Shown here: one piece after another, positions 32,521-56,491 of the stretch
Layout: every line of letters begins with the position of its first letter
Numbering within the stretch: the first letter of the stretch is position 1
Assembly (NCBI GenBank): GCA_026129405.1
Contig: JAHCID010000001.1
Span: 1-64,000, forward strand
Source: a bacterium
Lineage (GTDB): Bacteria > Desulfobacterota > Binatia > DP-6
Reading direction: 5' to 3'
Length of the DNA stretch: 64,000 nt
Made by a program: the position numbers and the translations under genes
The notes under the pieces: generated by a model
Told to the model about the DNA's origin: nothing
What the model saw: only the letters and a program-made list of their open reading frames with translations
Database searches by the model: none

Positions 32521-32585
32521 ATCACCGGGCACCACCGGCGGCGCCCGCTAGGCGGCCGCAGTCGGCTTCGATAAGAGGGCGCCGC

Positions 32586-33350
32586 ATGCGTCGCGCCGTC
32601 CGCTGGATGAACGCGCTGGGGCTGGTGGCGACGCTCGCCAGCGCCCTCGCCGTGCTCGGGTCCTGGGTCCTCGACCCCACCTACCGGCAGCATTACGGAG
32701 ACCAGCCGCTCTTCGTGCTCGGCTACGTCGCCCTGCACGCCTGGTACCTGCGGGCCTACCTCACCGATGCCCGGGCCCTGCCCGCGATCGCCTTCGCCCG
32801 GGCCGCGGCCGGCCTCTTCTTCCTCGTCACCTTCACGTACATCGGGCCGGCGTGGATGGTCGTCAGCCCGGCGCGCTACGTCTACCTGCTCTTCGAGTGG
32901 GGGTCGGCGTTCAAGATCGGCATGTTCGCGTTCGTCTTCCTCGGCCGCGGTGCTTTCAACGTCTTCAGCGCCTTCGTGCTGACGGAGACCTGGTGGCGGC
33001 CCATGCGCGAGACCCGGCCGCTCCTCGCGCGCCTCGTCACCGGCGTCCCGGTGCTGCTGATCGTCGGCTGCCTGTGGCTGTTCCTCCAGCTGGCCCGCAT
33101 GGATGCGCGGACGTTCTCGCCGGAGGCGCACGGCGTCGCCGCGGAGGTCCTCGCGACCATCGACTGCGAGACGCTGCGCCAACGCCGCGGCACCACGACC
33201 ACCGACGTCCGCCAGCGCGGCGAGCGGCGCTACGAGGTCACGGTGCGCTGGGATTGCCGCGACGTGCAGGTGATGGTGCGGGATCCCGACGGCAAGCTCG
33301 GGACCGAGCACGGGCCGCGGTTCGACTGCTGCCCGAACACGTCCGGCTGA
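32586..33350 (+). CDS. Polytopic membrane protein of unknown function
   Basis: 254 residues with about five hydrophobic helices (NALGLVATLASALAVLGSWV, LFVLGYVALHAWYL, FARAAAGLFFLVTF, FKIGMFAFVFLG, LVTGVPVLLIVGCLWLFLQL) and a soluble C-terminal domain of ~80 residues with Cys-Cys near the end (FDCCPNTSG). No family recognised. ATG 32586 is preferred; the upstream frame crosses the IS-like repeats. First gene right of the island. Confidence 0.65.
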   Translation: MRRAVRWMNALGLVATLASALAVLGSWVLDPTYRQHYGDQPLFVLGYVALHAWYLRAYLTDARALPAIAFARAAAGLFFLVTFTYIGPAWMVVSPARYVYLLFEWGSAFKIGMFAFVFLGRGAFNVFSAFVLTETWWRPMRETRPLLARLVTGVPVLLIVGCLWLFLQLARMDARTFSPEAHGVAAEVLATIDCETLRQRRGTTTTDVRQRGERRYEVTVRWDCRDVQVMVRDPDGKLGTEHGPRFDCCPNTSG

Positions 33351-33360
33351 GGAGTGATCG

Positions 33361-33486
33361 CCTGATCCGGCTGGCGGCGCGCCGGCGCCGGAGCCCGTCC
33401 GAGAAATCCTTGGGGAGGGAACGAGCCGGGGGCGGCACGTCTTCCCGGACGGGCTCCGGCGCCGGCGCGCCGCCGGCTGGATCAGG
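33361..33486. repeat. 41-bp-arm inverted repeat between convergent genes
   Basis: Left arm 33361-33401 and right arm 33446-33486 are reverse complements over 41 bases, with only two non-identical positions, both able to form G-U pairs. The loop is 44 bases. The right arm runs into the stop codon of the RND gene. It is by far the longest inverted repeat I see in the window; it can serve as a bidirectional terminator but is much longer than needed. Confidence 0.8.
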
Positions 33487-35845
33487 CGTGCGCCGCGACC
33501 GCCTCCGGTGCCGCCACGACCGGCCGCGCGCCGGCGCCGGCCTCGACGAAGGCCGGTCGCAGGACCGTGAGCAGGGCCGGCAGCACGACCAGCGCGCTCG
33601 CCGCCGACACCAGCATCGCCAGCGCCACCAGCGCCCCCAGCTCCACGTGGAGCGCGAACCCCGACAGGCAGAGCGTCGCGTAGCCGACGGCGATGGCCGA
33701 GGCGACGAAGCAGACGGCCTTGCCCGAGGTGTCGAGCGCGCGGCGCAGCGCGGTGGCGAGATCGCCGCTCGTCGCGCGCTCCTCGCGCACGCGGAAGAGG
33801 AGGTACATGGCGTAGTCGGCGCCGATGCCGACCGCCATCGCCGAGATCGTGGCCGTGATGCCGTCGAGCGGCACCCGGAGCAATCCCATGACGCCGAAGT
33901 TCACGGCCACCGTCAGCGCGAGCGGCACCACGACGAGCAGCCCCGCCAGGAACGAGCGCAGGAGCAGCGCCGACACGGCCACCGTGATGGCGGCGATCTG
34001 GAGGATGTTGCGCAGCTTCCCGTGCACCATCACCTCCGTCGACGCGGCGATCGACGCGATGGTGCCGGTGAACGCGACGTCGACCCCCGGGGGCAGGTGC
34101 GTCGCTGCCAGCGCGGCCGCGCGCGCGATCAGTGCCTCGCCGGCGTGCGTGCTGTCGTCGCGGACGAGCAGCCGCACCTTCGCCCAGCGATGGGTCGGAT
34201 CGAGGATGACGTCGAAGTCGTCGGCGCCGCCCGAGAGGCCGTAGAGGAAGAGGTACTGGGCGACCAGCTCGCGCGACGCCGGCAGCTCACCGGCGTCGGC
34301 GCGATCGGCGTTCAGCGCCAGGTGCATGCGCCGCACGAAATCGACGTAGGACGTCACCTTACCGACCCCGGGCGCCGCCGCCAGCTTACCCTGGAGCTTC
34401 CACAGCCCGGCGAGCACGCCCGGCTCCTCGAGCCCGCCGTCGCGGCCGCCGTCGAGCAGCAGGATCAGCGTGCTCGTGCCGGCGAAGGCGTCGTTCAGTG
34501 CGGCGTCGTCGACGCGCACGGCCTCGCCTTCGCGGAACTGGCGCTTCACGCTCATGTCGACCGCGAGCCGACTGGCGGCGAGCCCGCAGAGGGCGACGAG
34601 GAGACCGGCGGCGCCGAGCACGCGCCACGGCCGACGCGTCGCCAGCGCCGCAACCCCGCCGAGCAGCCGATCGAGGATCGGGTGCGCCGCCGCCTCGCGC
34701 TCACGCTCACGCCGCGCGGGAGCCGGCAGCATCGCGCGCACTGCGGGGATCAGCGTCGCCTCGATCACGAGCGCCGACACGATGCCGAACGCCGTGAAGA
34801 TACCGAACGTGCGGATGCTCGCCGTCCCGAACGTCACCAGCGACGCGAAGGACAACGCCGCGACCGCACCGGCGGCGAGCATCACCGGACCGACGGTGCG
34901 CAGCGACGCCACCACCGCCGTCTCGACGTCGCCGCAGCGGTCGTACTCCTCGTAGAAGCGCTTCAGGACCTGCACGGCATGCCCGGCGGCGACCGCGAGG
35001 ATGAGGACCGGCGTGGTGGTGTTGAAGGGATCCAGCGCCACCCCGGCGAGGCCCATGAGGCCGAGCGCCCACAGCACCGAGAGGAGCCCGGTCGCGAGCG
35101 GCAGGACGAGCGCCTGGAGCGTGCGGAAGGCCTCGTAGTGGACCAGCCCGATGACGAGCAGCGCCAGCGGGAACAGGTAGGCCATGCGGCTCGAGTAGGC
35201 GCTCAGCTGCGACAGGAAGGCGACCGGACCGGACAAGCGCCACGTGAAGGTGCCGTCGTCCTCGCTCGCGATGGCCGCGCGCACGGCGGCGTCGAGCTGC
35301 CGATAGCCGGGCGTTGCCGGCGTCAGCTCGAAGCTCGCCTGCACCGCGGCCGCGGACCCGTCGGCGGCCACGAGCGTGCCGATCCAGGCGTCGTTGGCGA
35401 ACGCCCGGGCGCGCACGGCGGCGGCGCCCGCCGCGTCCGTCGGCGGCTCCGGCATCACCGCTTCGACGACCAGCCCGTCGGCGTTGCCGCCGATCGCCTT
35501 CACCTGCGGCGCGGCGAGGCTCTGGATCAGCGCCGGGTTGGCCCCCGGCACGTGACGGAGCTTCTCCGTGACCCGTGCCAGCTTGTGGAGGAACGCCGGC
35601 GTGAAGACCTGCCCGTCGTGCGGGAACAGCCCGACGACGACGAGGTTCTTGTCGCCGAACAGCGTGTGCACGCGGTCGAGCGTCTCGACGTAGGGATGCC
35701 CCTGGGGCAGCTGCGCGTCGGGGTCGACCTCGACGTGCAGACGCGTGGCCGCGACACCGAGCCCGAGCGTGATCGCGCAGAGGGTGCCGAGGACGAGAAG
35801 CCGCCGCCGCACCACCCATCGCGCCAGACGCTCGAGCCGCGTCAT
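33482..35845 (-). CDS. RND/MMPL exporter coupled to the acyltransferase
   Basis: 787 residues. N-terminal helix (LLVLGTLCAITLGLGVAAT), periplasmic loop with QGHPYVETLDRVHTLFGDKN, helix group from ~210, second loop, and the C-terminal core AVGIGADYAMYLLFRVREE, typical of hydrophobe-type RND/MMPL proteins such as HpnN and actinobacterial MmpL. It exports lipids or acylated small molecules. The ATG lies one base after the acyltransferase stop, so both are made from one mRNA under the sigma-54 promoter at 36591-36606. It is distinct from the tandem RND pair at 13.8-19.1 kb. Confidence 0.88.
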   Translation of the reverse strand: MTRLERLARWVVRRRLLVLGTLCAITLGLGVAATRLHVEVDPDAQLPQGHPYVETLDRVHTLFGDKNLVVVGLFPHDGQVFTPAFLHKLARVTEKLRHVPGANPALIQSLAAPQVKAIGGNADGLVVEAVMPEPPTDAAGAAAVRARAFANDAWIGTLVAADGSAAAVQASFELTPATPGYRQLDAAVRAAIASEDDGTFTWRLSGPVAFLSQLSAYSSRMAYLFPLALLVIGLVHYEAFRTLQALVLPLATGLLSVLWALGLMGLAGVALDPFNTTTPVLILAVAAGHAVQVLKRFYEEYDRCGDVETAVVASLRTVGPVMLAAGAVAALSFASLVTFGTASIRTFGIFTAFGIVSALVIEATLIPAVRAMLPAPARREREREAAAHPILDRLLGGVAALATRRPWRVLGAAGLLVALCGLAASRLAVDMSVKRQFREGEAVRVDDAALNDAFAGTSTLILLLDGGRDGGLEEPGVLAGLWKLQGKLAAAPGVGKVTSYVDFVRRMHLALNADRADAGELPASRELVAQYLFLYGLSGGADDFDVILDPTHRWAKVRLLVRDDSTHAGEALIARAAALAATHLPPGVDVAFTGTIASIAASTEVMVHGKLRNILQIAAITVAVSALLLRSFLAGLLVVVPLALTVAVNFGVMGLLRVPLDGITATISAMAVGIGADYAMYLLFRVREERATSGDLATALRRALDTSGKAVCFVASAIAVGYATLCLSGFALHVELGALVALAMLVSAASALVVLPALLTVLRPAFVEAGAGARPVVAAPEAVAAHA

Positions 35846-35846
35846 T

Positions 35847-36566
35847 TCACGCCCCCACGCAGAGCCGCTCGGGCGCCGGGAAGCCGAGCTCGGGCAGGAT
35901 CTCCGCCAGCTGCGACTCCGGGAACGCCTCGCCGACGAGGAACGGGCGGAACGGATGATCCGCCAGGTCGGCCGCGACCCGCCGCAGGTCGAAGTAGAGC
36001 AGCTCGTGCTCCCCGCCCGCGAGCTTCTCGTAGCGCGCGCTGAGGCCGGTGCGCTGGAAGCGCATCCACTCGTACGTCCACACGCGCTCGGGCTTGGCGC
36101 AGATGACGAGGTTGCGGGCGTCGATGCGGTCGATGACCTGCTTCACGAGATTGAAGAGGCCGAGCGACACGACCGGGAGGAACGTCTTGCCCTTGCGGTA
36201 CTCGGGGAGGATCGCGAAGCGCGTGATCTCGACCGCGCCCGCGTTGCGCAGCGGCAGCGGCAGCCGAAAGTACTCTTCGCACTCGAGCGGCCCGGCGCGG
36301 CGCGGCGTGAGCCGGACGGTGCCGCAGGCGGTCCCGGTCTCGACGTCCTCCGCGAGGAGGAACCAGGAGCGGGGATCGTAGGCGTCGGGTACCGGCACGT
36401 CGTAGCCGTTGCCGTGGACGTAGACCCGGCGGCGGACGTCGATCGCGCGGGAGATCGCCTCCGGCGTCGAGCAGAGGGAGAAGCGGTACCCGGAGAGGAG
36501 ACCGCGCTTGAAAGCCTCGTCCTCGGGGGCGTCGCTGGGCGGGAGTTGGACCGGACCGGACTGCAT
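35847..36566 (-). CDS. LuxI/FeeM-superfamily N-acyltransferase (exosortase-associated type)
   Basis: 239 residues. Acyl-homoserine-lactone-synthase-like core in GNAT fold: AIDVRRRVYVHGNGYDVPV, DAYDPRSWFLLAED, GTACGTVRLTP and EITRFAILPEYRKGK; the R, D-x2-D, GTVR and E-x2-R positions match those conserved in LuxI and in FeeM/PEP-CTERM-associated acyltransferases. The length is nearer FeeM/exosortase-type than LuxI. Such enzymes move an acyl chain from acyl-ACP to an amine. GGAGGG precedes ATG 36566. No exosortase is visible. The product (acyl amino acid, acyl lactone, other) cannot be told. Confidence 0.75.
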   Translation of the reverse strand: MQSGPVQLPPSDAPEDEAFKRGLLSGYRFSLCSTPEAISRAIDVRRRVYVHGNGYDVPVPDAYDPRSWFLLAEDVETGTACGTVRLTPRRAGPLECEEYFRLPLPLRNAGAVEITRFAILPEYRKGKTFLPVVSLGLFNLVKQVIDRIDARNLVICAKPERVWTYEWMRFQRTGLSARYEKLAGGEHELLYFDLRRVAADLADHPFRPFLVGEAFPESQLAEILPELGFPAPERLCVGA

Positions 36567-36590
36567 GTGACCCTCCAGGCCATCTGCCTG

Positions 36591-36606
36591 TGCAACGCCT
36601 GTGCCG
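36591..36606 (-). promoter_or_regulatory. Sigma-54 promoter of the acyltransferase-RND operon
   Basis: On the minus strand CGGCAC-AGGCG-TTGCA, matching the -24/-12 consensus TGGCAC-N5-TTGCW at all but the first base; GG and GC are exactly 10 bases apart. It predicts a transcript start near 36581, 15 bases before ATG 36566. Confidence 0.8.
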
Positions 36607-36652
36607 CGGGCCATGCAGCCGTCCCCGCATGCTTTTCGGTACTTGCGGGGCA

Positions 36653-36666
36653 GGAACCGCGGTTCC
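36653..36666. promoter_or_regulatory. Palindromic activator site GGAACC-GC-GGTTCC
   Basis: Perfect 14-base palindrome about 80 bases upstream of the predicted sigma-54 start, the normal place for an enhancer-binding protein. A further half site CGTTCC lies at 36673-36678. The same motif occurs upstream of the ketoacyl synthase (38942-38955). It sits between two divergent genes and may serve both. Confidence 0.65.
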
Positions 36667-36789
36667 CACCACCGTTCCCAGGGCCCTCTGGGGCCCATCC
36701 GGACGTTTCCCGTCAGTCCGGAACGCCGTGAGAAGGGCCGCCACCGGCTTGTGAGTCCGGCGGGCGACCCACAGAATCGAGGCGTCCGG

Positions 36790-38868
36790 ATGCGCTACGA
36801 CTGGCTCGTTCCGCTGCTCGCCGCCGTGGCGAACGTCGTCATCTGCGGGGCCGTCCTGTGGCGGCGCCGCCGCGACCGCATGGCCTGGGTGTTCGCGGCC
36901 ATGACCCTCACCATCGCGGCGTGGGACCTCGGCATCTTCGCGCTCTACTTCTTCGAGGATCCCGCCCGCGCGGAGTGGTGGAGCCGGCTGGCACGGGTAG
37001 GGATGTGCTTCGCGCCGGTCGCCGGCTTCCACACGGCGGTGCTCATCACGGGCTTCCGGGGTCGCGCCTGGGACACCGCGCTGGGCGTCGGCTACCTCTC
37101 CGCCGCAGTACTCTCGCTCGTCAACCTGCAGGGTCAGCTCGTCGCCGGCGTCCAGCCGCACGTCTGGGGCTGGTACCCGCGCATCCTGCCTGCCTACGCC
37201 GGCGTGACGGTCGTGGTGGCCGTCTACATGCTGCTCACCATCGGGGTCATGTGGGCGCGCTACCTCCATCCCGAGTCCGCCCGGCAGCGCGCGCAGGCGA
37301 AGCTCTTCTTCCTCGGCGCGCTCGTGCAGGTGCCGTTCTCGTTCACGAACCTGCTGCCGCTCTACGGCGTCGAGATGTATCCGCTCGGGCAGCTCGGCAA
37401 CGTCTTCTTCACCGGTGCCCTCGCCTACGCGATCGTGCGGCACCGGCTGATGGACGTCGACTTCGTCGTCCGCAAGGTGCTGAGCTTCACGCTCGCCGCG
37501 GCGGTCGTGCTCGTGCCCGGAGCGCTCACGGTCGCCGGACTGAGCCAGCATCTCCACGCGGAGGATCCGCTCGGCATCGGCACCGCGGCGGCGTTGCTCG
37601 CGCTCTGCGCGGCAGTCCTCGTGCCGATGCTCCAGCGCGCCCTCGAAACGCGCATCCAACGCGCCTTCTTCCCGGACCGCTGGGACTACCGTCGCCGGCT
37701 GCGCCAGTTCGCGACCACGCTCGTACACGAGCTCGACGAGCAGCAGCTCCTGCGCCGGCTCGGCGACACGCTGACGGAGATCCTCGAGCTCGAGCACTGC
37801 CACGTGTTCGCCCGCGAGGCCGACGGCAGCGAGCTGCTGCTGGCCCATCCGGTGCCCACCACGCCGCAGCCGCTCGACGCGAGCCTGGTCGCGGCGCTCG
37901 AATCGTCGTACGGCCCGGTGCTCGCGGGCGAGCTCGAAGGCCCCTCCCCCGAGGCCGCCGCGTACGCCGCGGCGCACTACTGGGAGGTGCTCGCGCCGTT
38001 GCGGGTCAACGATCGGCTGATCGGCGTGCTCGCCCTGGGCGAGAACCGCGAGAAGAACATGATGTCGGCGGAGGATCTCCAGCTGATCGCGACGGTCGCC
38101 GCGGGCGCCAGCGTGGCGCTGGAGAACAGCCGTCTGTCGCGCGAGCTGCGCCGCTCGGAGGTGGTGCTCCAGCGCGCCAGCAAGCTGTCCTCGCTCGGCA
38201 TGCTCGCCGCGGGCATCGCGCACGAGATCCGCAACCCGCTGGTCGCCGTGAAGACGTTCCTCGACCTGCTGCCGCAGCGGCTCGACGATGCCGACTTCGT
38301 GTCGCGCTTCCGCGAGCTCAGCCAGAGCGAGCTGAAGCGGGTCACCGACCTCATCAGCGACCTCCTCGCTCTCGGCAAGTCGAAGACCGCCGAACGGCGG
38401 CCGATCGAGCTCGCGACCACGCTCGAGCCGGTGCTGCGCCTGATGGAATCGACCGCCCGCAAGCGCCAGGTGGAGGTGATCGCCCGGTTGCCGCCCGACC
38501 TGCCCCTGGTGCTCGCCGACAGCGACCAGATGAAGCAGATCGTGCTGAACCTCCTCTTGAACGCCATCGAGGTCAGCCCCCCGGGCAGCGCGGTGCAGTT
38601 CGACGTCCACCTCGCGACGCCGTCGACGGTCGTGCTCGAGGTCCGCGACCAGGGTCCCGGCATTCCACCGGAGCACCTGGAGACGATCTTCGAGCCCTTC
38701 TTCACCACCAAGGAGAGCGGTACCGGACTCGGCCTGCCGCTCGTACACCAGATGGTCACCGAGCACGGCGGCGAGATCGACGTCGAGAGCCACGTCGGCC
38801 GGGGCAGCGCGTTCCGCATCACGTTCCCGCTGGCGGCGCATCTCGTGCTCCGCGACACCGGCACCTGA
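36790..38868 (+). CDS. 7TM-GAF histidine kinase 1
   Basis: 692 residues. Residues ~1-225 form seven helices of the HisKA_7TM type, residues ~225-290 add two more helices, then a GAF domain (about 310-450), HisKA with His478 in GIAHEIRNPLVAVKTFLDLL, and HATPase with NLLLNAIE, DQGPGIP and GTGLGLP. Resembles the PrsK kinase of exosortase/PEP-CTERM systems. No receiver is fused; the only response regulator near is at 43.4-44.8 kb. Its catalytic half is nearly the same as that of kinase 2, so they may phosphorylate the same regulator. The start at 36790 places the first helix at the N-terminus. Confidence 0.85.
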   Translation: MRYDWLVPLLAAVANVVICGAVLWRRRRDRMAWVFAAMTLTIAAWDLGIFALYFFEDPARAEWWSRLARVGMCFAPVAGFHTAVLITGFRGRAWDTALGVGYLSAAVLSLVNLQGQLVAGVQPHVWGWYPRILPAYAGVTVVVAVYMLLTIGVMWARYLHPESARQRAQAKLFFLGALVQVPFSFTNLLPLYGVEMYPLGQLGNVFFTGALAYAIVRHRLMDVDFVVRKVLSFTLAAAVVLVPGALTVAGLSQHLHAEDPLGIGTAAALLALCAAVLVPMLQRALETRIQRAFFPDRWDYRRRLRQFATTLVHELDEQQLLRRLGDTLTEILELEHCHVFAREADGSELLLAHPVPTTPQPLDASLVAALESSYGPVLAGELEGPSPEAAAYAAAHYWEVLAPLRVNDRLIGVLALGENREKNMMSAEDLQLIATVAAGASVALENSRLSRELRRSEVVLQRASKLSSLGMLAAGIAHEIRNPLVAVKTFLDLLPQRLDDADFVSRFRELSQSELKRVTDLISDLLALGKSKTAERRPIELATTLEPVLRLMESTARKRQVEVIARLPPDLPLVLADSDQMKQIVLNLLLNAIEVSPPGSAVQFDVHLATPSTVVLEVRDQGPGIPPEHLETIFEPFFTTKESGTGLGLPLVHQMVTEHGGEIDVESHVGRGSAFRITFPLAAHLVLRDTGT

Positions 38869-38941
38869 TCTCGCCGCGGCCTCCGGCGCACCCGTCCCAC
38901 GCCGCCGAATGGGAACCCCCGGGACCGCAACGGCGCGGAGC

Positions 38942-38955
38942 GGAACCCGGGTTCC
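38942..38955. promoter_or_regulatory. Palindromic activator site GGAACC-CG-GGTTCC
   Basis: Perfect 14-base palindrome of the same 6-2-6 form as at 36653-36666, centred about 65 bases upstream of the predicted sigma-54 start. A second, imperfect copy (GGAACC-CCC-GGGACC) lies at 38912-38926. Confidence 0.65.
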
Positions 38956-38987
38956 CTGCCGCACCACGTCGCACCGCCCATGCAGGA

Positions 38988-39003
38988 CGGCATGAGGGTT
39001 GCT
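38988..39003 (+). promoter_or_regulatory. Sigma-54 promoter of the ketoacyl synthase gene
   Basis: CGGCAT-GAGGG-TTGCT with GG (38989-38990) and GC (39001-39002) ten bases apart. Predicted start of transcription near 39013, so the first ATG (39016) would be almost leaderless. Confidence 0.7.
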
Positions 39004-39015
39004 CGGCAGTATCCC

Positions 39016-40353
39016 ATGCAGTTCATCGAAGGCACCAGCGTCGCGCCCCACCCGAACACGATCCCGGCGATCCGCTTCGAGCAGCCGCGCAGCGAGGCGC
39101 GGCCCGCGTCCCGGCGCGTCGTCGTCACCGGGATCGGCCTCGTCGCCAGCAGCGGCATCGGCATCGACGCGCTCTGGAAGACGCTGGTCGACGGCGGCTC
39201 GACCGTCCGCCCCCTCAGCAGCTTCGACGTCAGCGACTACGCCGTCCAGATCGCCGCCCAGGTCCCCGACTTCCGGCCGCGCGACTTCATGACCGGCATG
39301 CGCGCCCGCGGCGGCGGCCGCTACTGCCAGCTCGCGGTCGCCGCGACGCGGCTCGCGGTCGAGGACGCGCGCGTGCCCGACGGCGCGCTGGCGTCGACCC
39401 GCGCCGGGCTCTTCCTCGGCACCGCATCGGGCGCGGCCGAGCTGTACGAAGCCCAGTCGATGGTCTTCCAGCGCCGCGGGCCGGGCTCGGTCGGCCGGAC
39501 CTTCCCCCTCGTCGCCTCGCCGCACGCCGCCGCCGCGCTGGCGGCGAGCGACTGGGGCATCGTCGGCCCCATCCTCACCGTATCCACCGAGTGCCCGGCG
39601 GGGCTCGACGCCCTCGTGCACGCGACGCGCGCGATCCGCAGCGGCACGATCGACGTCGCCGTCGCCGGCGGCGCCGACGCGCCCCTGACGCCCCTCCTCT
39701 TCGCCGGCTTCGCTCGCTGCGGGCTGCTGTCGGCGGACAACGACGCGCCGGCGAGCGCGGCGCGACCCTTCGATCGCCGGCGCGCCGGCTTCGTTCTCGG
39801 CGAGGGCGGCGCCATGCTGGTCCTCGAGAGCGAGGAGCACGCCCGCGCCCGCGGCGCCCGCATCCTCGGGACGATCCTCGGCGCCGGCGTGGCCCGCGCG
39901 CGGCCCACGTTCCTCGGCGACGTCGACCCGACCGGCCAGGGCTTCGCGGCGGCGGGCCGCCAGGCGCTCGCGGAGGCGGGCCGCACCGTCGACGACGTCG
40001 GCCTCGTGTGCGCGCACGCGACCGGCATCCAGATGACCGACCTCGCCGAGGCCCACGGGCTCGCGACGCTGCTCGGCCCGCGGCGCAGCCGCGTGCCGGT
40101 GATGTCGGTGAAGGGCGCGCTCGGCCATCCGCTGGCCGCGGCCGGCATCCTCCAGGTGGCGACCGCGCTGCGCACCATCGCGACGGGGCGGATCCCGGCC
40201 ACGCGCAACTGCGAGCAGGTCGACCCGGCGTGCGGGCTCGACGTCGTGCACGGCGGCTCCCGCTGCGAGGACGTACGGACGGCGCTGGTCGAGAGTCACG
40301 CCTTCGGCGGCAACACGACCTCGCTGCTGCTCGGCGGCGCCGAGGCCGCCTGA
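39016..40353 (+). CDS. Beta-ketoacyl-ACP synthase (FabF-type, stand-alone)
   Basis: 445 residues from ATG 39016 (a ~30-residue N-terminal tail precedes RRVVVTGIGLVASSG, where FabF normally begins). Catalytic Cys in VSTECPAGLDAL, first His in CAHATGIQMTD, Lys/second His in KGALGHPLAAAG, so the C-H-H triad is intact. Condenses acyl-ACP with malonyl-ACP. The location in a sigma-54-controlled group with an acyltransferase and away from fab genes suggests it makes a dedicated acyl chain rather than bulk fatty acids; this is inference. Confidence 0.85.
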   Translation: MQFIEGTSVAPHPNTIPAIRFEQPRSEARPASRRVVVTGIGLVASSGIGIDALWKTLVDGGSTVRPLSSFDVSDYAVQIAAQVPDFRPRDFMTGMRARGGGRYCQLAVAATRLAVEDARVPDGALASTRAGLFLGTASGAAELYEAQSMVFQRRGPGSVGRTFPLVASPHAAAALAASDWGIVGPILTVSTECPAGLDALVHATRAIRSGTIDVAVAGGADAPLTPLLFAGFARCGLLSADNDAPASAARPFDRRRAGFVLGEGGAMLVLESEEHARARGARILGTILGAGVARARPTFLGDVDPTGQGFAAAGRQALAEAGRTVDDVGLVCAHATGIQMTDLAEAHGLATLLGPRRSRVPVMSVKGALGHPLAAAGILQVATALRTIATGRIPATRNCEQVDPACGLDVVHGGSRCEDVRTALVESHAFGGNTTSLLLGGAEAA

Positions 40354-40359
40354 GCCTGC

Positions 40360-40398
40360 GGTGCCGGAGGGTCCGCGAGCCGCCGACCCTCCGGCACC
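40360..40398. terminator. Bidirectional hairpin terminator
   Basis: GGTGCCGGAGGGTC / GACCCTCCGGCACC, perfect 14-bp stem, 11-base loop, between the convergent ketoacyl synthase and Spy-like genes. Confidence 0.7.
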
Positions 40399-40404
40399 GG
40401 TGCG

Positions 40405-40917
40405 TCAGAGCCGCAGCGTCCCCGAGCGGATCAGGTAGGCGAGCCGCCGGCGCTGCTCCGGCCGCAGCAGCGCATGGATGCGGCCGAGCGCCCGCTCGAC
40501 CACCTCGCGCAAGCGCTCGGCACTGCGCACGCGCGTCGTGCCGCCCTCGCCGGCGCGGGCGACGTCGTAGGTGTCGCCCGCGACCGCGTCGGCGAACGCA
40601 GCCATGGCCCGGCGCGTGTCGACCTCGGCCTGCGCCCGCTCGGTCTTGAGGTCGCCCAGGATGGTGGCGAGATCGGCGGTCTGCTCCTCGTCGAGCTCCA
40701 GCTTGTGGGCGAGATACCGCAGCGGCCGGCGGACGCCGAAGTCGCCGCCGCCGAGCTCGCCGGCGTCCATCCGCGACGCGAACGCCGCGATCCAGTCCCG
40801 ATCGACATGGCGGTGCTCGTGGCCGCCCTCGTGGTCGCGGACGGGGCTGCAACCGCCCGCAAAGGCCCAGGCAGGCGCGCCGCCGTGGCGGGCCCACCAA
40901 CGTAGGTGTCGGTGCAT
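40405..40917 (-). CDS. Spy/CpxP-like periplasmic protein
   Basis: 170 residues, mainly helical. Pattern LAHKLELDEEQTADLATILG and RIHALLRPEQRRRLAYLI with two LTxxQ-like segments, as in Spy/CpxP and periplasmic heavy-metal-sensor proteins. His-rich stretch HEGGHEHRHVDRDW near residue 30 may bind metal. The N-terminus (WWARHGGAPAWAFAGGC) is a short, poor signal or lipoprotein-like peptide ending in Cys. GAGGAG precedes ATG 40917. Promoter at 40992-41020. Confidence 0.65.
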   Translation of the reverse strand: MHRHLRWWARHGGAPAWAFAGGCSPVRDHEGGHEHRHVDRDWIAAFASRMDAGELGGGDFGVRRPLRYLAHKLELDEEQTADLATILGDLKTERAQAEVDTRRAMAAFADAVAGDTYDVARAGEGGTTRVRSAERLREVVERALGRIHALLRPEQRRRLAYLIRSGTLRL

Positions 40918-40991
40918 CGTCTTCTCCTCGTGCCGGGGCTGGTCGCACCCGGCGGGAATTCCGCGTGGGCGGGATGCCACACGCAGCCCAC

Positions 40992-41020
40992 CTCGTAGGC
41001 GCGCGAGGCGCCCGGGTCAA
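40992..41020 (-). promoter_or_regulatory. Promoter of the Spy-like gene
   Basis: On the minus strand TTGACC (41015-41020), 17-base spacer, TACGAG (40992-40997). The 352 bases between 40918 and 41269 otherwise hold only this and the sigma-54 site of kinase 2. Confidence 0.5.
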
Positions 41021-41208
41021 CGCAGCCCGCACGCGGCGGTGCGCAGCGCCTGCCGTCACCATCGTGCCGCGACGGACCGTTGCACCCCGCCGCGCAACCC
41101 GCAGAGCATCGGCCGCGTTGTGCCACGCACGACACACCGTCCTGTGCCGCCTGGGTCAGGCTGACGCGTTCCCCCGCCCAAAGGCCTTCGCTCGAGGGCG
41201 ACTCTGCG

Positions 41209-41224
41209 AGGCACCGGCTTTGCT
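41209..41224 (+). promoter_or_regulatory. Sigma-54 promoter of histidine kinase 2
   Basis: AGGCAC-CGGCT-TTGCT, full GGCAC/TTGCT match with GG and GC ten bases apart. It predicts a start near 41235, 35 bases before ATG 41270. No full 14-base palindrome is seen upstream; a half site CGTTCC lies at 41167-41172. Confidence 0.75.
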
Positions 41225-41269
41225 CCACGGATCCCCGGACCCGCACGACGCCGGCGGGACACGCACGTC

Positions 41270-43336
41270 ATGGGTGGCGATCCCTACGTCTACATCGCCG
41301 CCGTGGGTGCAGTGGGACTCCTGCTCGCCGCCCTGCTCCTCGTGGCGCGTCCAGACCCCCTGCGCACCGCGGTCGCGCTGGTCACGGCCAATCTCCTTGC
41401 CTGGCTCGGGGGAGAGGTGTGCGTCCTGCTGGCGCCGAACGTCGCCCAGGCCGACCTCGCCATCCGCGCCACGTACGGAGCGCTGCTGCTCCTGCCGTGG
41501 ACGGTGCACCGCCTCACCGCCCAGCTGGACGACCCGGGGGCACGCCTCCATCGCGTCGCCGCGGCCGCCACGGGGGCGGCCGCCGGCATCGGCGTCGGAC
41601 TCCTCGCCGCCACCGACCTCGTGATCGCGGGCGCGCGGTTCGAGCCGCCGCACTTCCACCGCGTCGGCGGTCCGCTCTTCGTCCCGGTGATGGCGACGAT
41701 GTTCACCGGGCTGCTCGCCGCGCTGGCGATCGCGATCCGGGCCATGCGGCGCACGACCGACCGTCTGCGCCGCATCCGCTTCCAGTACCTCCTCGCCGGG
41801 GTGGCGGCGAACGCGGCCCTCGGCCTCGTCGACCTGGCGGTGCTCCAGCCGCTCGGCTTCCGCGCCCACCGCGCGTTCCTCTTCCCGCTCGGGACGGTCC
41901 TCGCGTGCGGGGCGACGATCTACGCCGTCGCGCACACGCGCCTCCTCGATCTACCCACCGCCGCCCGTCGCAGCATCGTCGCCGTCGGCCTCCTCGGCGT
42001 GCTGCTCGTGCCCTGCCTCGGGCTCTCGCTCCTCGCCGAGCTGGCGCTGACCGGGCGCATCGAGCTGTGGCACAGCGTCGTCACCGCCGGCCTCTTCGTC
42101 ATCGCCGGCTTCGGGTTCCCCCGCCTGCGCGTCGTCGCCGAGCAGTCGCTCGAGCAGCTCTGCTTCGGCGCCCGCGCCGACGAGCGACGGCTGGTACGCG
42201 CGCTCGGCGAGGAGGTGACGACCGTGCTGAGCCTCGCGACGCTCGCCGTCGTCACGCGCACGGCGCTCGGCCGGGCGTTCGGCGACGCGGAGCCGCGGCT
42301 GTGGCTCTGGCAGGACGAGCGCCTCGGACGCCTCGATCCCGCCGGCGACGCGCCTCCCACCGACCCGCATCTGCTGGCGCTGCTCGCGGACGCCTCCGGG
42401 CCCGTCCTGCGCGCCGAGCGCTCCGCGCGCGACGCCGGCCTCCTCGAAGCCGCCCACATAGAGCTCGCCGTCCCGCTGCGCGTGAAGGGCCGCCTCGTCG
42501 GCCTGCTCGCGCTCGGCCCGCGCGGCGACGGCCGCGTCTACACCGACGACGACCTGGGCCTCGTGGCGACGGTCTCGAGCCAGGTGGCCATCGCGCTCGA
42601 GAACGCGCGGCTCTACGAGGAGCTACGGGAATCGCGCGCCGAGGTGGGGCGCGCGAGCCGTCTGTCGGCGCTCGGCATGCTCGCCGCCGGCATCGCGCAC
42701 GAGATCCGCAACCCGCTGGTCGCCGTGAAGACCTTCCTCGACCTGCTGCCGCACCGGCTGAACGACCCCGAGTTCCTCGGCACCTTCCGCGACCTGAGCC
42801 TCTGCGAGCTGCGGCGGGTCACGGATCTGATCAGCGACCTCCTGACGCTCGGCAAGTCGCCGCGCGCCGAGCGCTGTGCCGTGGCCCTCGACGTGACGCT
42901 CGAGCCGGTGCTGCGCCTGATGGAATCGACCGCGCGCAAGAGCGGGGTCGAGGTCACGCTCGCGGCCGAACGCAACCTGCCGCCGGTCTGGGGCGATCCC
43001 GACCAGCTGAAGCAGATCGTCCTCAACCTGCTGCTGAACGCCATCGAAGCGAGCCCGCGCGGCGCGGGCGTGACGCTCTCGCTCTCCGCGGCACGCGACG
43101 TCGTCGAGCTGGCCGTCGCCGACCAGGGCCCGGGGATTCCGCCCGAGCGCCTCGACGCCATCTTCCAGCCGTTCTTCACCACCAAGGAGAGCGGCACCGG
43201 GCTCGGCCTGCCGCTCGTCCACCAGATGGTCGTCGAGCACGACGGCGACATCGCGGTCGACAGCACGCCGGGACGCGGCACCGTCTTCCGCGTCCGCCTG
43301 CCCGCCGCGACGCCGCTGCGCGCGACCGGGACGTAG
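41270..43336 (+). CDS. 7TM-GAF histidine kinase 2
   Basis: 688 residues with the same order as kinase 1: N-terminal helices (~1-285), GAF (~305-445), HisKA with His477 in GIAHEIRNPLVAVKTFLDLL, HATPase with NLLLNAIEAS, DQGPGIPPE and GTGLGLPL. The kinase cores of 1 and 2 are almost identical while their sensors differ, showing a duplication with input change. Preceded by its own sigma-54 promoter, so the kinase itself is under NtrC-type control and could form a feedback loop. Confidence 0.87.
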   Translation: MGGDPYVYIAAVGAVGLLLAALLLVARPDPLRTAVALVTANLLAWLGGEVCVLLAPNVAQADLAIRATYGALLLLPWTVHRLTAQLDDPGARLHRVAAAATGAAAGIGVGLLAATDLVIAGARFEPPHFHRVGGPLFVPVMATMFTGLLAALAIAIRAMRRTTDRLRRIRFQYLLAGVAANAALGLVDLAVLQPLGFRAHRAFLFPLGTVLACGATIYAVAHTRLLDLPTAARRSIVAVGLLGVLLVPCLGLSLLAELALTGRIELWHSVVTAGLFVIAGFGFPRLRVVAEQSLEQLCFGARADERRLVRALGEEVTTVLSLATLAVVTRTALGRAFGDAEPRLWLWQDERLGRLDPAGDAPPTDPHLLALLADASGPVLRAERSARDAGLLEAAHIELAVPLRVKGRLVGLLALGPRGDGRVYTDDDLGLVATVSSQVAIALENARLYEELRESRAEVGRASRLSALGMLAAGIAHEIRNPLVAVKTFLDLLPHRLNDPEFLGTFRDLSLCELRRVTDLISDLLTLGKSPRAERCAVALDVTLEPVLRLMESTARKSGVEVTLAAERNLPPVWGDPDQLKQIVLNLLLNAIEASPRGAGVTLSLSAARDVVELAVADQGPGIPPERLDAIFQPFFTTKESGTGLGLPLVHQMVVEHDGDIAVDSTPGRGTVFRVRLPAATPLRATGT

Positions 43337-43352
43337 CGCCGCCGGCGGCGTC

Positions 43353-44759
43353 TCAGAGCTTGAGACGCCGCAGCTTCTTCATGAGGCCGCGGTAGCTCAT
43401 GCCGAGCTCCTCCGCGACCCGCGCCTTGACGCCGTTGTGGCGATCCAGCGCTTCGAGGATCTGGCGGCGCTCGAAGTCGTCGGTCTTCTGCTGGAGCATG
43501 CCCGGCGGCCGATCCGCCTCGGCGGACTCGAGCAGCTCCGTCGACAGCAGCTCCTCGCCGAGCGGGCCGCCCGGCTCGGCCAGCAGCATCGCGCGCTCGA
43601 TCTCGTTGGCCAGCTCGCGCACGTTGCCACGGAACGGGGCGCGCTGGAGGACCGCGAGGGCTTCGGGCGTCAGCTCGCCGACCGGCTTCTTCATCTGACC
43701 CGCGATCCGCCGGACGAGATGGCGCGCGATCGGCGCGATGTCCTCCGGGCGCTCGCGCAGCGGCGGGATCGTGATCGGGAAGACCTTCAGGCGGTAGTAG
43801 AGATCCTCGCGGAAGCGCCCGGCGCGCACCTCCTCGTCGAGCCGGCGATTGGTGGCCGCGACGACGCGCACGTCGACCGCGTGCGTGCGGCTGTCGCCGA
43901 TGGGACGCACCTCCCCCTCCTGGAGGACGCGCAGCAGCTTCGCCTGGAAGCCCAGCTCGGTCTCGGCGATCTCGTCGAGGAAGAGCGTGCCGCCGTCGGC
44001 GACCTCGAACAGGCCCTTGCGGTCGGCGACCGCGCCGGTGAAGGAGCCCTTGCGGTGCCCGAAGAGCTCGCTCTCGAGCAAACCCTCGGTGAGCGCGGCG
44101 CAGTTCACCGGCACGAAGAGCTCGTCGCGCCGCGGGCTGTGCGCGTGGATCGCGCGCGCGACCAGCTCCTTGCCGGTGCCCGTCTCGCCCTGCACCAGCA
44201 CCGTGCTGCGCGACGGCGCGACCTTCGCGACGAGCCCGAGGACGTCCTTCACCGCGGCGCTCACGCCGACGATCTCGGCCGCCGGCACCGCCGCCTCGCG
44301 CAGGTAGGCGTTCTCGACCGCGAGCCGCTCGTTGGCGCGGCGCAGCGCCTCGACCAGACGCGCGTTCTCGCGCGTCAGATGGAACAGCTCGATGGCCCGG
44401 AAGAGGGCCAGCCGCAGCTCGTCCGGCTCCCACGGCTTCTGCACGTAACGGAAGATGCGGCTCGCGTTCACCGCCTGCACCAGCGCCTCGACGTCGGTGT
44501 AGCCGGTGAGCACGATGCGCGTGGCGTCCGGCCGGATCGCCATCGAGCGCTCCAGGAACTCGGTGCCGCCCATGCCCGGCATGCGCTGGTCGGCGACGAT
44601 GACGGCGACGTCGGTCTCCGTCAGGACATCCAGCCCACGCGCCCCGGACTCCGCCGTGACGACCTCGAACTCGTCCCCGTAGTTGAAGCCGAAGGCCCGC
44701 AGGATGTCCGGCTCGTCGTCGACGACGAGGATCGGAAACTGGCGGTAGTCGAGCGCCAC
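43353..44759 (-). CDS. NtrC-family sigma-54 response regulator (PrsR-like)
   Basis: 468 residues: receiver with Asp57 (VIVADQRMPGMGG), AAA+ domain with Walker A GETGTGKE (191-198), the sigma-54 contact loop GSFTGA (238-243, a variant of GAFTGA), Walker B GGTLFLDEIAE, and a C-terminal Fis-type HTH (RVAEELGMSYRGLMKKLRRL). Co-transcribed with kinase 3 (9 bases between). The only bEBP in the window, it is the natural reader of the palindromes and sigma-54 promoters at 36.6, 38.9 and perhaps 41.2 kb. Confidence 0.9.
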   Translation of the reverse strand: MALDYRQFPILVVDDEPDILRAFGFNYGDEFEVVTAESGARGLDVLTETDVAVIVADQRMPGMGGTEFLERSMAIRPDATRIVLTGYTDVEALVQAVNASRIFRYVQKPWEPDELRLALFRAIELFHLTRENARLVEALRRANERLAVENAYLREAAVPAAEIVGVSAAVKDVLGLVAKVAPSRSTVLVQGETGTGKELVARAIHAHSPRRDELFVPVNCAALTEGLLESELFGHRKGSFTGAVADRKGLFEVADGGTLFLDEIAETELGFQAKLLRVLQEGEVRPIGDSRTHAVDVRVVAATNRRLDEEVRAGRFREDLYYRLKVFPITIPPLRERPEDIAPIARHLVRRIAGQMKKPVGELTPEALAVLQRAPFRGNVRELANEIERAMLLAEPGGPLGEELLSTELLESAEADRPPGMLQQKTDDFERRQILEALDRHNGVKARVAEELGMSYRGLMKKLRRLKL

Positions 44760-44768
44760 GCGCGTCGT

Positions 44769-47315
44769 CTATCGACCCGCGCTCGCGACGCTGTCAAGCG
44801 AGGCGCCCGCGGTGACGGGGAGCCGGAGCCGCACCGTGGTGCCGGCGCCCGGCGTACTCTCGATCGCGATCGTGCCGCCGTGGGCGGTGACGATGCCATG
44901 GCTGATGGCCAGGCCGAGCCCGGTGCCGGCCCCGACGTCCTTGGTGGTGAAGAAGGGCTCGAACACGCGCGCCTGCACGTCGGCCGGCATGCCCGCCCCG
45001 TCGTCGCGGATGGCGATCTCGACGGCGTCGCCGCCGGCGCGGGTCGTGATCCAGAGGTTCCCCGGCCCGGCGATGGCGTCGCAGGCGTTCGCGAGGAGAT
45101 TCATGAAGACCTGATTCATTTGCCCCGGATCGCACTCCACCGGCGGCAGCGTGCCGAGCTCGCGATGCACGACGACGCGGTCGCGCCAGCGCGACTCGAG
45201 GAGGCGCAGGCTCACCTCGAGGCCGTCGTGCAGATCGACCGCCTTGCGCTGCGCTTCGCCGAGACGCGAGAACGTGCGCAGGTCCTTCACGATCGCCGCC
45301 GTGCGCTCGGCGCCGCGCGCCATGATGCCGACGATCTCGTCGGCCTCGCCGAGGAGCTTCTGCACGTCGGGCGAGCCGGCGGCGGCGGCGCGCTCGATGC
45401 GGCGGCGCAGCGGCGACACGCTCGTCGCGATGAAGCTGACCGGGTTGTTGATCTCGTGCGCGACGCCCGCGACGAGCCGGCCGAGCGACGCCATCTTCTC
45501 CGACTGCACGAGCTGCACCTGCGCCTGCCGCAGCTCGCCGAGCGCGTGGTGCAGCTCGCGGTTCGACGTCTCCAGCTGCACGGTGCGCTCGGCGACGCGC
45601 TCCTCGAGGCTGGCGTTGAGGGCGACGAGCGCCTCGTACGAGGCGGCGTTCTGGAGCGCGATCGCCGCCTGGTTCGCCAGCGCCCGCAGGAAGCCCGCGT
45701 CGCCCGCGGTGAAGAAGAGGCCGGAGCGTTTCGGACCGACGGTCAGGACGCCGACCACCGCGCCGCGGAGCAGGAGCGGCACGGCCAGCTCGGCGCCGAG
45801 CGCCGTCAGCGCCGCCCGCACCACGTCGAGCGCCGCGGGCTCGGCGTAGCTCTCGGCCGAGTCGAAGGCGGTGAGCACGCGGCCGGCACCGAGCGCGGGC
45901 ACGAGCGCCGCGGGCACCGTCGCGTCGCCGCCGACCTCGTGCAGTCCCTCCGCCGCCGTGCCGACGAAGAGACGCGTCCCCGCGTTCGGGATCGCCCCCT
46001 GCACGCCGTCGCGCACCAGGCGTGCGATCTGCTCGCGCTGGAGCGCCGAGGCGAGCGCCCCGCCGACCCGGTCGAGCACGGCGGCGCCGTCGTACGCGGT
46101 GCGGAAGAAGACGCGGTCGACGATGCCCTGGAGCAGGCTGCGCAAGGGGTTGAACAGCAGCAGCACCGCCAGCGTGAAGGCGACGGGAAAGGCGGGCGAT
46201 CCCGTGACGTCGCCCGGCAACGCCAGGTTGAAGACGAGCACCGACCCGACGTACGCGGCGCCGACGGCGCCGGTGAGGAGCAGGTAGTACGCCCCCCGCT
46301 TCACCATCGCGTCGATCTCGAAGAGGTCGTGCTTGACGACGGCGTAGGCGAGCGCCATCGCGAACAGGAAGCCCGTGAACGCCCCGCTGTTGACGGCGAC
46401 GCTCCCCGCCGTGAGCGCCGAGGCGAGGAAGATCACGCCCGGCAACGCGAACCCCATGAGGGTCCCGAGCGTCATCACACGGATGCGCTGGCGATCGAGC
46501 TGCGAGCGGCCGCGCCAATACTCGAGGACGAGGCGCCAGCCGAAGAAGAGCGCCGCGCAGCCGAGGTAGACCATCGCGGCGTTGTGGATCAGCGTGTAGA
46601 GCGCCGGCGTGTAGAGGAAGAGCTCGTAGGGGATGAGCAGCGCCGTCCCGAGGGCGTAGAAGACCCACGCGTACGGCGCCCACGGGTGCGGGGACGGGAA
46701 GAGCAGCCCCAGGTGGAAGCCCGCGGCCGGGAACAGGGACTCGCCGACGAGGTGCAGGCGCACGAAGGTCGCGGGACCGTAGAGGTCCATCGCCGTGACC
46801 ATCCACAGCGTCGACAGCGTGCCGAACGCGAGCAACGCGCGCCCGAGCGAGGCCCGCGGACGCAACGTCCACGTGACCAGACCCGAGGCGAGGTAGACGG
46901 CGGAGTTGAGGAGATACGCGCCGAAGAGGAGGACCCAGTCGCGCGCGCCGAAGCGCTTGGTCGGCACGACGACGTCGCGGTCGGCCCCGCGCCAGCGCAC
47001 GCGATAGCGGACCGCCGTGCCGGGGGCGAGCTCGGCGACGTAGTCGTAGACGTCGGCGGTGCTCGCCACCGGCCGCCCGTCCACCGCGAGGACCTCGTTC
47101 TGATACAGCTCCTGCGGCCCGCTCCAGTCCGCCAGCCCGATCGATGCGACGACCCGATTCGGCAGCAGGAGGAAGCCCGGGAACGTGCGCCCGACCCACT
47201 CGGCACTGGTGATCGTCGTGCGGGTGGCGAGCGCGATCGCGAGCACGCCGAGGACGATGGCTGCGAGCCGAACCGTGGTCGCCGCGCGGGGCGTGGTCGG
47301 GAAGCCCTCCGCCAT
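44769..47315 (-). CDS. Histidine kinase 3 with PDZ-like sensor
   Basis: 848 residues. A first helix (AAIVLGVLAIALA), a periplasmic PDZ-like segment (YQNEVLAVDGRPVASTADVY, ~55-115), about eight helices (~125-400), GAF (~410-560), a coiled coil, HisKA with His620 in LVAGVAHEINNPVSF, and HATPase (NLLANACDAI, DDGAGMP, GTGLGLAI). The core is of a different subfamily from kinases 1 and 2. Upstream of and cotranscribed with the sigma-54 response regulator, hence its likely cognate kinase. Confidence 0.88.
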   Translation of the reverse strand: MAEGFPTTPRAATTVRLAAIVLGVLAIALATRTTITSAEWVGRTFPGFLLLPNRVVASIGLADWSGPQELYQNEVLAVDGRPVASTADVYDYVAELAPGTAVRYRVRWRGADRDVVVPTKRFGARDWVLLFGAYLLNSAVYLASGLVTWTLRPRASLGRALLAFGTLSTLWMVTAMDLYGPATFVRLHLVGESLFPAAGFHLGLLFPSPHPWAPYAWVFYALGTALLIPYELFLYTPALYTLIHNAAMVYLGCAALFFGWRLVLEYWRGRSQLDRQRIRVMTLGTLMGFALPGVIFLASALTAGSVAVNSGAFTGFLFAMALAYAVVKHDLFEIDAMVKRGAYYLLLTGAVGAAYVGSVLVFNLALPGDVTGSPAFPVAFTLAVLLLFNPLRSLLQGIVDRVFFRTAYDGAAVLDRVGGALASALQREQIARLVRDGVQGAIPNAGTRLFVGTAAEGLHEVGGDATVPAALVPALGAGRVLTAFDSAESYAEPAALDVVRAALTALGAELAVPLLLRGAVVGVLTVGPKRSGLFFTAGDAGFLRALANQAAIALQNAASYEALVALNASLEERVAERTVQLETSNRELHHALGELRQAQVQLVQSEKMASLGRLVAGVAHEINNPVSFIATSVSPLRRRIERAAAAGSPDVQKLLGEADEIVGIMARGAERTAAIVKDLRTFSRLGEAQRKAVDLHDGLEVSLRLLESRWRDRVVVHRELGTLPPVECDPGQMNQVFMNLLANACDAIAGPGNLWITTRAGGDAVEIAIRDDGAGMPADVQARVFEPFFTTKDVGAGTGLGLAISHGIVTAHGGTIAIESTPGAGTTVRLRLPVTAGASLDSVASAGR

Positions 47316-56164: not shown

Positions 56165-56491
56165 CGGACGACCCCCGAGAGCGCACGAGCAACCCTCATG
56201 CCGACCGCGGCGCGTGCAGCACCCGCATGGAGCCTCGCGCCGCGGCGGCCGAGCGTCCACGAACGAACGCCGCGGCGGGCGCGGCGTCACCACAACGCCA
56301 TGGCCGCGCGCGACGCCACGGCGCTCGCGAGGTTCCGCGGGGCGCGCCGCCCCGACTCTTCGGCGCGCGCACGGCGGCTGCGCCATCCGACGAAGGGCGT
56401 TCGGCGCCGCATCCACGTCGCCCGGCCGTCCCGCAGGCGGGAGCTCGGTCCGCGTTGACACCGCACCGGGGGTCTTGCATGGTTCGAGGTC
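56165..56491 (+). other. Intergenic region with promoter-like element
   Basis: 327 bases between divergent genes. I see no gene in it. TTGACA at 56455-56460 lies 32 bases before the next start; the best -10 (CATGGT, 56478-56483) is weak. Confidence 0.35.

Follow-up and report, generated by a model that had tools for sequence, protein, structure and literature searches.

The 64,000-nucleotide stretch of DNA analysed here (positions 1 to 64,000 of contig JAHCID010000001.1; hereafter the window) carries a minus-strand operon in which a FeeM-superfamily N-acyltransferase (35847..36566, 239 aa, matching PF21926 above the cut-off) is followed, as the second gene, by an RND/MMPL exporter (33482..35845, 787 aa, PF03176 at 1.6e-43). 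The two genes meet in a TGA-A-ATG junction with a 1-base gap which, together with the Pfam matches, bears out the coupling of acyltransferase and exporter that had been claimed from the letters of the window (hereafter the sequence-only reading). Divergent from the acyltransferase lies HK1, a 7TM-GAF histidine kinase (36790..38868, plus strand; PF16927, GAF, HisKA and HATPase_c), followed on the same strand by a FabF-like beta-ketoacyl-ACP synthase (39016..40353, 445 aa, PF00109/PF02801) with its Cys-His-His residues present. Farther along are a small gene of the LTXXQ (CpxP/Spy) type assigned by Pfam (40405..40920, minus strand), the HK1 paralogue HK2 (41270..43336, plus strand; 46-48% identity over about 510 residues), an NtrC-type sigma-54 activator made up of a receiver, an AAA+ domain with GSFTGA and a Fis HTH (43353..44759, minus strand), and, just upstream of it on the same strand, the membrane GAF histidine kinase HK3 (44769..47300). 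The H, N and G boxes are intact in all three kinases, as are the phospho-Asp, Walker A and GSFTGA of the NtrC-type protein; the adjoining synthase, the two paralogous membrane kinases, the third kinase and the activator of the sequence-only reading are therefore all present with key motifs intact.

Since sigma-54 sites fall within the longer open reading frames, the starts of two genes were revised, that of the acyltransferase to ATG 36566 (replacing 36698) and that of the synthase to ATG 39016. The synthase scores 328.9 bits against TIGR03150, below the cut-off of 493.75, and is FabF-like by its match to PDB 1j3n (1.1e-72). The exporter belongs to the same MMPL fold family as the HpnN/HAE3 lipid transporters and is related by score to TIGR00921 and TIGR03480 (HpnN hopanoid transporter; 100.4 against a cut-off of 751.85); it differs from them in that all of these scores lie below cut-off and in that it is partnered with an acyltransferase operon. 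A membrane protein without a Pfam match (32580-33350, plus strand) is convergent to the RND gene, as it is in L022 and L024, and is also present in G003.

The acyltransferase has a FeeM-type fold

In good agreement with the proposed FeeM-superfamily identity, the acyltransferase scores 40.1 bits against PF21926 (FeeM; cut-off 27), and the top structural match of the AlphaFold2 model of ACYLTRANSFERASE (pLDDT 82.8) is FeeM itself (2g0b; Z 19.9, rmsd 2.5, 176 residues aligned), with the next structural entry at Z 16.7 and the AHL synthases at Z 14-16. E113 (in VEITRF) and R116 form an E-x-x-R pair that is invariant in nine of nine homologues. This pair aligns with that of the AHL synthases, E113 falling on the AHL-synthase Glu; the alignment is with the AHL synthases, not with FeeM. 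The residues that serve as the criterion for N-acyl synthases have been shown to be essential in Nas354 (PMC4897644). The nearest subfamily model, the exosortase-associated TIGR03694, gives 29.7 against a cut-off of 111.95, and the LuxI autoinducer synthase family PF00765 gives no match at E 0.001. Because the model matches the FeeM structure and the E-x-x-R pair aligns with that of the AHL synthases, FeeM-type N-acylation is our best guess for the role of the enzyme, with neither acceptor nor donor readable at an identity to FeeM of about 14%.

With the FeeM N-acyl synthases the enzyme shares a GNAT/LuxI-like fold and an origin in soil bacteria; unlike them, it is predicted to be co-transcribed with an MMPL pump from a sigma-54 enhancer-dependent promoter. 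With the AHL synthases (LuxI family: TofI 3p2f, LasI 1ro5, BjaI 5w8a) it shares the superfamily fold and the E-x-x-R pair, and in both cases the synthase adjoins a candidate sensor, although here PF00765 is unmatched and the candidate sensor is a histidine kinase rather than LuxR.

The acyltransferase is present in all 7 genomes of the source family and in 3 genomes of one other genus. Weak matches in L055-L058, which adjoin PlsC-like genes or resemble those that do, were set aside as being of the OlsB-OlsA (ornithine-lipid) kind (Pfam check: L055 only). A GNAT plus PlsC-like pair of this kind is encoded in the source genome, G000 (C8, L055:9302-10829), and also in relatives. The distant L028 acyltransferase gave no match when its sequence was searched against the PDB.

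Sigma-54 promoters share a candidate enhancer dyad

The sequence-only reading had noted sites of the form GGCAY-N5-TTGCW before the acyltransferase, the synthase and HK2. We found all three again, at a frequency far above chance: the window holds 4 such sites against 0.21 expected, a count reached by none of 100 shuffles, and all four directly precede ORF starts. They lie at 36591..36605 (minus strand; GGCACAGGCGTTGCA) before the acyltransferase operon, at 38989..39003 (plus strand; GGCATGAGGGTTGCT) before the synthase, at 41210..41224 (plus strand) before HK2, and at 56188-56202 (minus strand), 24 bases before a gene for a GAF/coiled-coil/receiver protein (56164-53288, minus strand). This fourth site is without a dyad (see below) and matches the core of the synthase promoter over 17 identical bases; a protein similar to the one it precedes is encoded in G003 (L107:16191-18998). 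Across the source genome, TGGCAC-N5-TTGCW has 23 matches and the reversed pattern 2.

Sigma-54 control of the acyltransferase is supported by its homologues, in 11 of the 11 checked of which a -24/-12 element precedes the gene, 22-28 nt before the ATG; no clear sigma-54 site precedes the acyltransferase of G117. For the synthase, about 14 nt separate the -12 element from the downstream ATG, and a nearly leaderless transcript would therefore be expected. The locus combines -24/-12 promoters with an AAA+ activator carrying a GAFTGA-type loop, two features expected of a sigma-54-dependent regulon.

The promoters of the acyltransferase and the synthase have a further feature in common that was absent from the sequence-only reading, a perfect dyad GGAACC-N2-GGTTCC upstream of -24/-12. 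The candidate enhancer GGAACCGCGGTTCC (36653..36666, minus strand) lies 48 bp upstream of the -24 GG of the acyltransferase promoter, and GGAACCCGGGTTCC (38942..38955, plus strand) 34 bp upstream of that of the synthase promoter. The 5.63 Mb genome contains the exact dyad GGAACCNNGGTTCC only four times (reversed pattern: 0), two of these being the copies at the acyltransferase and synthase promoters. The functional link between these genes, previously argued from adjacency, is better supported by this common dyad.

We then defined a composite element, GAAC-N4-GTTC / 31-60 bp / GGCAY-N5-TTGC, with the reversed pattern as control. It has 14 matches in the 7 genomes of the source family (control 0) and 4 in 138 other genomes of the class (control 3), one of these four, in G118, again being upstream of an acyltransferase. 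By genome, the composite is present in 7 of the 10 that have the acyltransferase and in 3 of the 135 that lack it (Fisher p = 6e-8, with related genomes treated as independent), suggesting that the dyad is restricted to acyltransferase-bearing genomes. The 3 acyltransferase-negative genomes with a match are G077, G108 and G142; the match in G077 reads like kinase coding sequence, and those in G108 and G142 were examined at the level of DNA. Loosening the -24 element yielded no additional composite site. Two sites were missed by the strict pattern: that of the RND promoter in G003, due to its sigma-54 site of the form GGTATGCTGGTTGCT behind a dyad, and that of G036, due to a dyad-promoter spacer of 66 bp.

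The distances from dyad to promoter cluster at 33-34, 45-48, 55-57 and 66 bp, one per gene kind and genus, and are helically phased: R is 0.80 for 10.5 bp, and simulation against uniform spacing gives p 0.0004. Phasing of this kind would be expected if an activator occupied a single face of the helix. The HK2 promoter carries no GAAC-N4-GTTC dyad, so that while its sigma-54 site stands, its membership of the same regulon, as supposed in the sequence-only reading, is unsupported.

Dyad-bearing promoters precede predicted acyl-modifying genes

Besides the acyltransferase-RND operon and the synthase, the dyad-bearing promoters of the source genome precede an XRE-type HTH gene (L080) and an unlinked gene for a membrane fatty-acid desaturase (L079:6660-7721, PF00487 (FA_desaturase) at 2.4e-35). 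In relatives, the dyad-bearing genes encode acyltransferases, lipase-like hydrolases (L081, L083, L084) and another hydrolase (L082); the hydrolases of L081 and L083 adjoin carrier proteins. A copy of the desaturase in G003, 60% identical, is clustered with HK1, a DUF1302 protein, RND and an NtrC-type activator, and this placement offers an independent check on regulon membership. Proteins with acyl-carrier domains are encoded near dyad-controlled genes (L081:3444-4388, L083:3862-4740 and 4988-6010, L080:7924-9525) and have a short conserved part, LTPYxxEMIVEDALRAG, after the carrier domain; in the copy of the source genome the carrier serine is seemingly missing.

A gene set of this kind could also serve membrane remodelling. 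The acyltransferase would then make a structural aminolipid, much as ornithine- or glutamine-lipid synthesis begins, with no secreted small molecule; acyl-chain adjustment would fall to the desaturase and hydrolases, and under envelope stress the MMPL pump, together with DUF1302/LolA-like partners, would deliver the lipid to the outer membrane. The desaturase and lipase-like hydrolases among the regulon members are in line with this, as are the DUF1302 and LolA-like genes adjoining the RND gene in G003 and G117, the LTXXQ (CpxP/Spy-type) gene within the cluster and the HpnN-type pumps among the closest named families of the RND gene. However, no PlsC-like partner adjoins the acyltransferase, and the genome encodes its OlsB-OlsA-type GNAT-plus-PlsC pair separately, at another place (L055:9302-10829). 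We regard membrane remodelling as a possible but doubtful explanation.

Conservation of the cluster and co-occurrence with the activator

A synteny search in relatives upheld part of the gene group of the sequence-only reading: RND, acyltransferase, HK1, the activator and HK3 are grouped together, whereas the synthase, the LTXXQ gene and HK2 were not found in the relatives' clusters. RND copies 57-70% identical adjoin the acyltransferase or the NtrC-type gene, HK1 is found at the same place (52-60% identical), and HK3 adjoins the NtrC-type gene in most relatives. The relatives usually have a ferritin-like gene between acyltransferase and RND. Its product (E-x-x-H twice; L023:2692-3342, at the same place in L022, L024, L031 and L032; model pLDDT 57.6), absent from the source operon, may be a diiron oxidase with the acyl product as its substrate. 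The close loci belong to soil and lake MAGs deposited under the name 'Deltaproteobacteria bacterium', with one labelled 'Chloroflexi bacterium'; they may belong to Binatia.

The NtrC-type gene follows the acyltransferase closely. Nine of the 10 genomes with the acyltransferase have its orthologue (E<=1e-140), which was found in no member of the other 135; the tenth positive genome, G004, holds a copy disrupted by a gap and 63% identical. In G003 and G117 the acyltransferase and the NtrC-type gene are unlinked, yet both are present. Activator and acyltransferase thus co-occur exactly.

No close homologue of the synthase was found in 144 other genomes of the class. As the best class matches are only about 40% identical, the synthase is an addition of the source lineage; HK2 is likewise one. 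It could be argued from these absences that the synthase and HK2 are unrelated neighbours that merely landed beside a conserved acyltransferase-kinase cluster. As an account of the two genes this is very unlikely: the synthase has one of the only 4 exact dyads of the genome, phased to a sigma-54 promoter, and other ketoacyl synthases and ACPs adjoin distant acyltransferase-HK1 pairs. For HK2 the unrelated-neighbour reading stands.

These distant acyltransferase-HK1 homologues adjoin in two other families of the class, with a ketoacyl synthase and a carrier protein nearby (L028:3176-11203, L029:3341-9900, L054:8163-12790); the L028 pair is also accompanied by an RND gene and an acyl-CoA dehydrogenase, and the L029 pair by an acyl-AMP ligase. 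The three loci are candidate lipid gene clusters without the dyad, and the combination of acyltransferase and HK1 with lipid enzymes seems to be a theme that recurs with different enzymes. On a contig labelled Chloroflexi (L030:9964-15885), an acyltransferase with a sigma-54 site lies alongside a MacB-type ABC exporter and a KAS III-like gene, that is, another exporter and another kind of synthase beside the same enzyme.

The circuit resembles PrsK/PrsR in logic

The sequence-only reading saw in the kinases and activator a PrsK/PrsR-type circuit used apart from protein sorting. PEP-CTERM genes form a sigma-54 regulon under PrsK/PrsR (Haft et al. 2006, PMC1569441), and RpoN dependence was shown for the PEP-CTERM gene pepA (PMC9850573). 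Both systems have a membrane kinase, an NtrC-type regulator and an enhancer motif set tens of bases ahead of a -24/-12 promoter, and in both, motif and regulator show exact phylogenetic co-occurrence. They differ in the enhancer, which is GGAAC-N4-GTTCC here and PEP-CTERM motif 1, a 17-mer ending TTTACA (PMC1569441), in the PrsK/PrsR regulon, and in their targets, lipid genes standing here in place of PEP-CTERM genes. Against TIGR02916 (PrsK; cut-off 300) HK1, HK2 and HK3 score 129.7, 110 and 111.3, and against TIGR02915 (PrsR; cut-off 502.6) the NtrC-type protein scores 338; TTTACA/TGTAAA is absent from the 12 promoter regions examined. The statement that no exosortase is present agrees with our PF09721 search, which gave no match in the 100% complete genome G000 and in which the control was positive only in M. 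jannaschii. Because the scores lie below cut-off, the motif differs and no exosortase was found, the circuit would seem to work like PrsK/PrsR without being a member of it, and the assignment to that type is not sustained.

The locus might still be a former or partial PEP-CTERM/exosortase circuit that lost its exosortase and kept the acyltransferase as a TIGR03694-type partner. This would explain the common logic of histidine kinase, NtrC-type regulator, enhancer plus sigma-54 promoter and FeeM/TIGR03694-like acyltransferase, and would fit the tie between N-acyl amino acid synthases and PEP-CTERM loci that PMC4897644 cites from Craig et al. 2011. However, TIGR02916, TIGR02915 and TIGR03694 all score well below cut-off, PF09721 detects no exosortase, and the enhancer is a GGAAC dyad with TTTACA absent from the 12 promoter regions. 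We consider this origin highly improbable; the reading is already disfavoured.

Discussion

In this study we have described a locus that is very likely part of a dedicated sigma-54 lipid regulon. It is fairly likely that the locus is the hub of such a regulon for an acylated small molecule, and the regulon probably makes and exports an N-acylated amine. The observations of the sequence-only reading have thus held up, and its interpretation is supported in part.

In the mechanism that we propose, HK1 and HK3 (perhaps also HK2) would respond to a signal by phosphorylating the NtrC-type activator, which would bind the dyad GGAAC-N4-GTTCC 33-66 bp upstream of the -24/-12 promoters and open them with sigma-54 polymerase. 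Once switched on, the FeeM-type acyltransferase would join an acyl chain, with acyl-ACP as the presumed donor, to an amine, for instance an amino acid, and the co-transcribed MMPL pump would move the product into or across the envelope. Chain-tailoring genes would be placed under the same switch: the FabF-like synthase and the unlinked desaturase in the source genome, and lipase-like hydrolases in relatives.

A more ambitious version, in which the exported N-acyl product is itself sensed by HK1 and, via the activator and sigma-54, raises expression of the synthase and acyl-tailoring genes, would make the circuit a positive loop for cell-to-cell signalling, with a LuxI/FeeM-type synthase paired with a 7TM histidine kinase in place of LuxR. 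That acyltransferase and HK1 are neighbours in three families even at about 30-40% identity, with the NtrC-type gene not adjacent, favours signalling, which we nevertheless judge unlikely. A literature search combining MMPL, N-acyl amino acid, histidine kinase and sigma-54 returned nothing relevant.

What biological purpose is served by N-acyl amino acid synthases of the FeeM type, which often come from soil DNA, has been called still unclear (PMC4897644). Here, an enzyme of this type is found within a defined regulon that offers a candidate activator, an enhancer, an exporter and a co-regulated synthase, desaturase and hydrolases, and that turns the open question on these enzymes into a short list of tests. 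Enhancer-driven control of the enzyme class would also be extended beyond exosortase systems. Finally, the genes behind the synthesis, modification and export of a fatty-acyl molecule appear to be linked by one shared DNA element, which makes their role testable.
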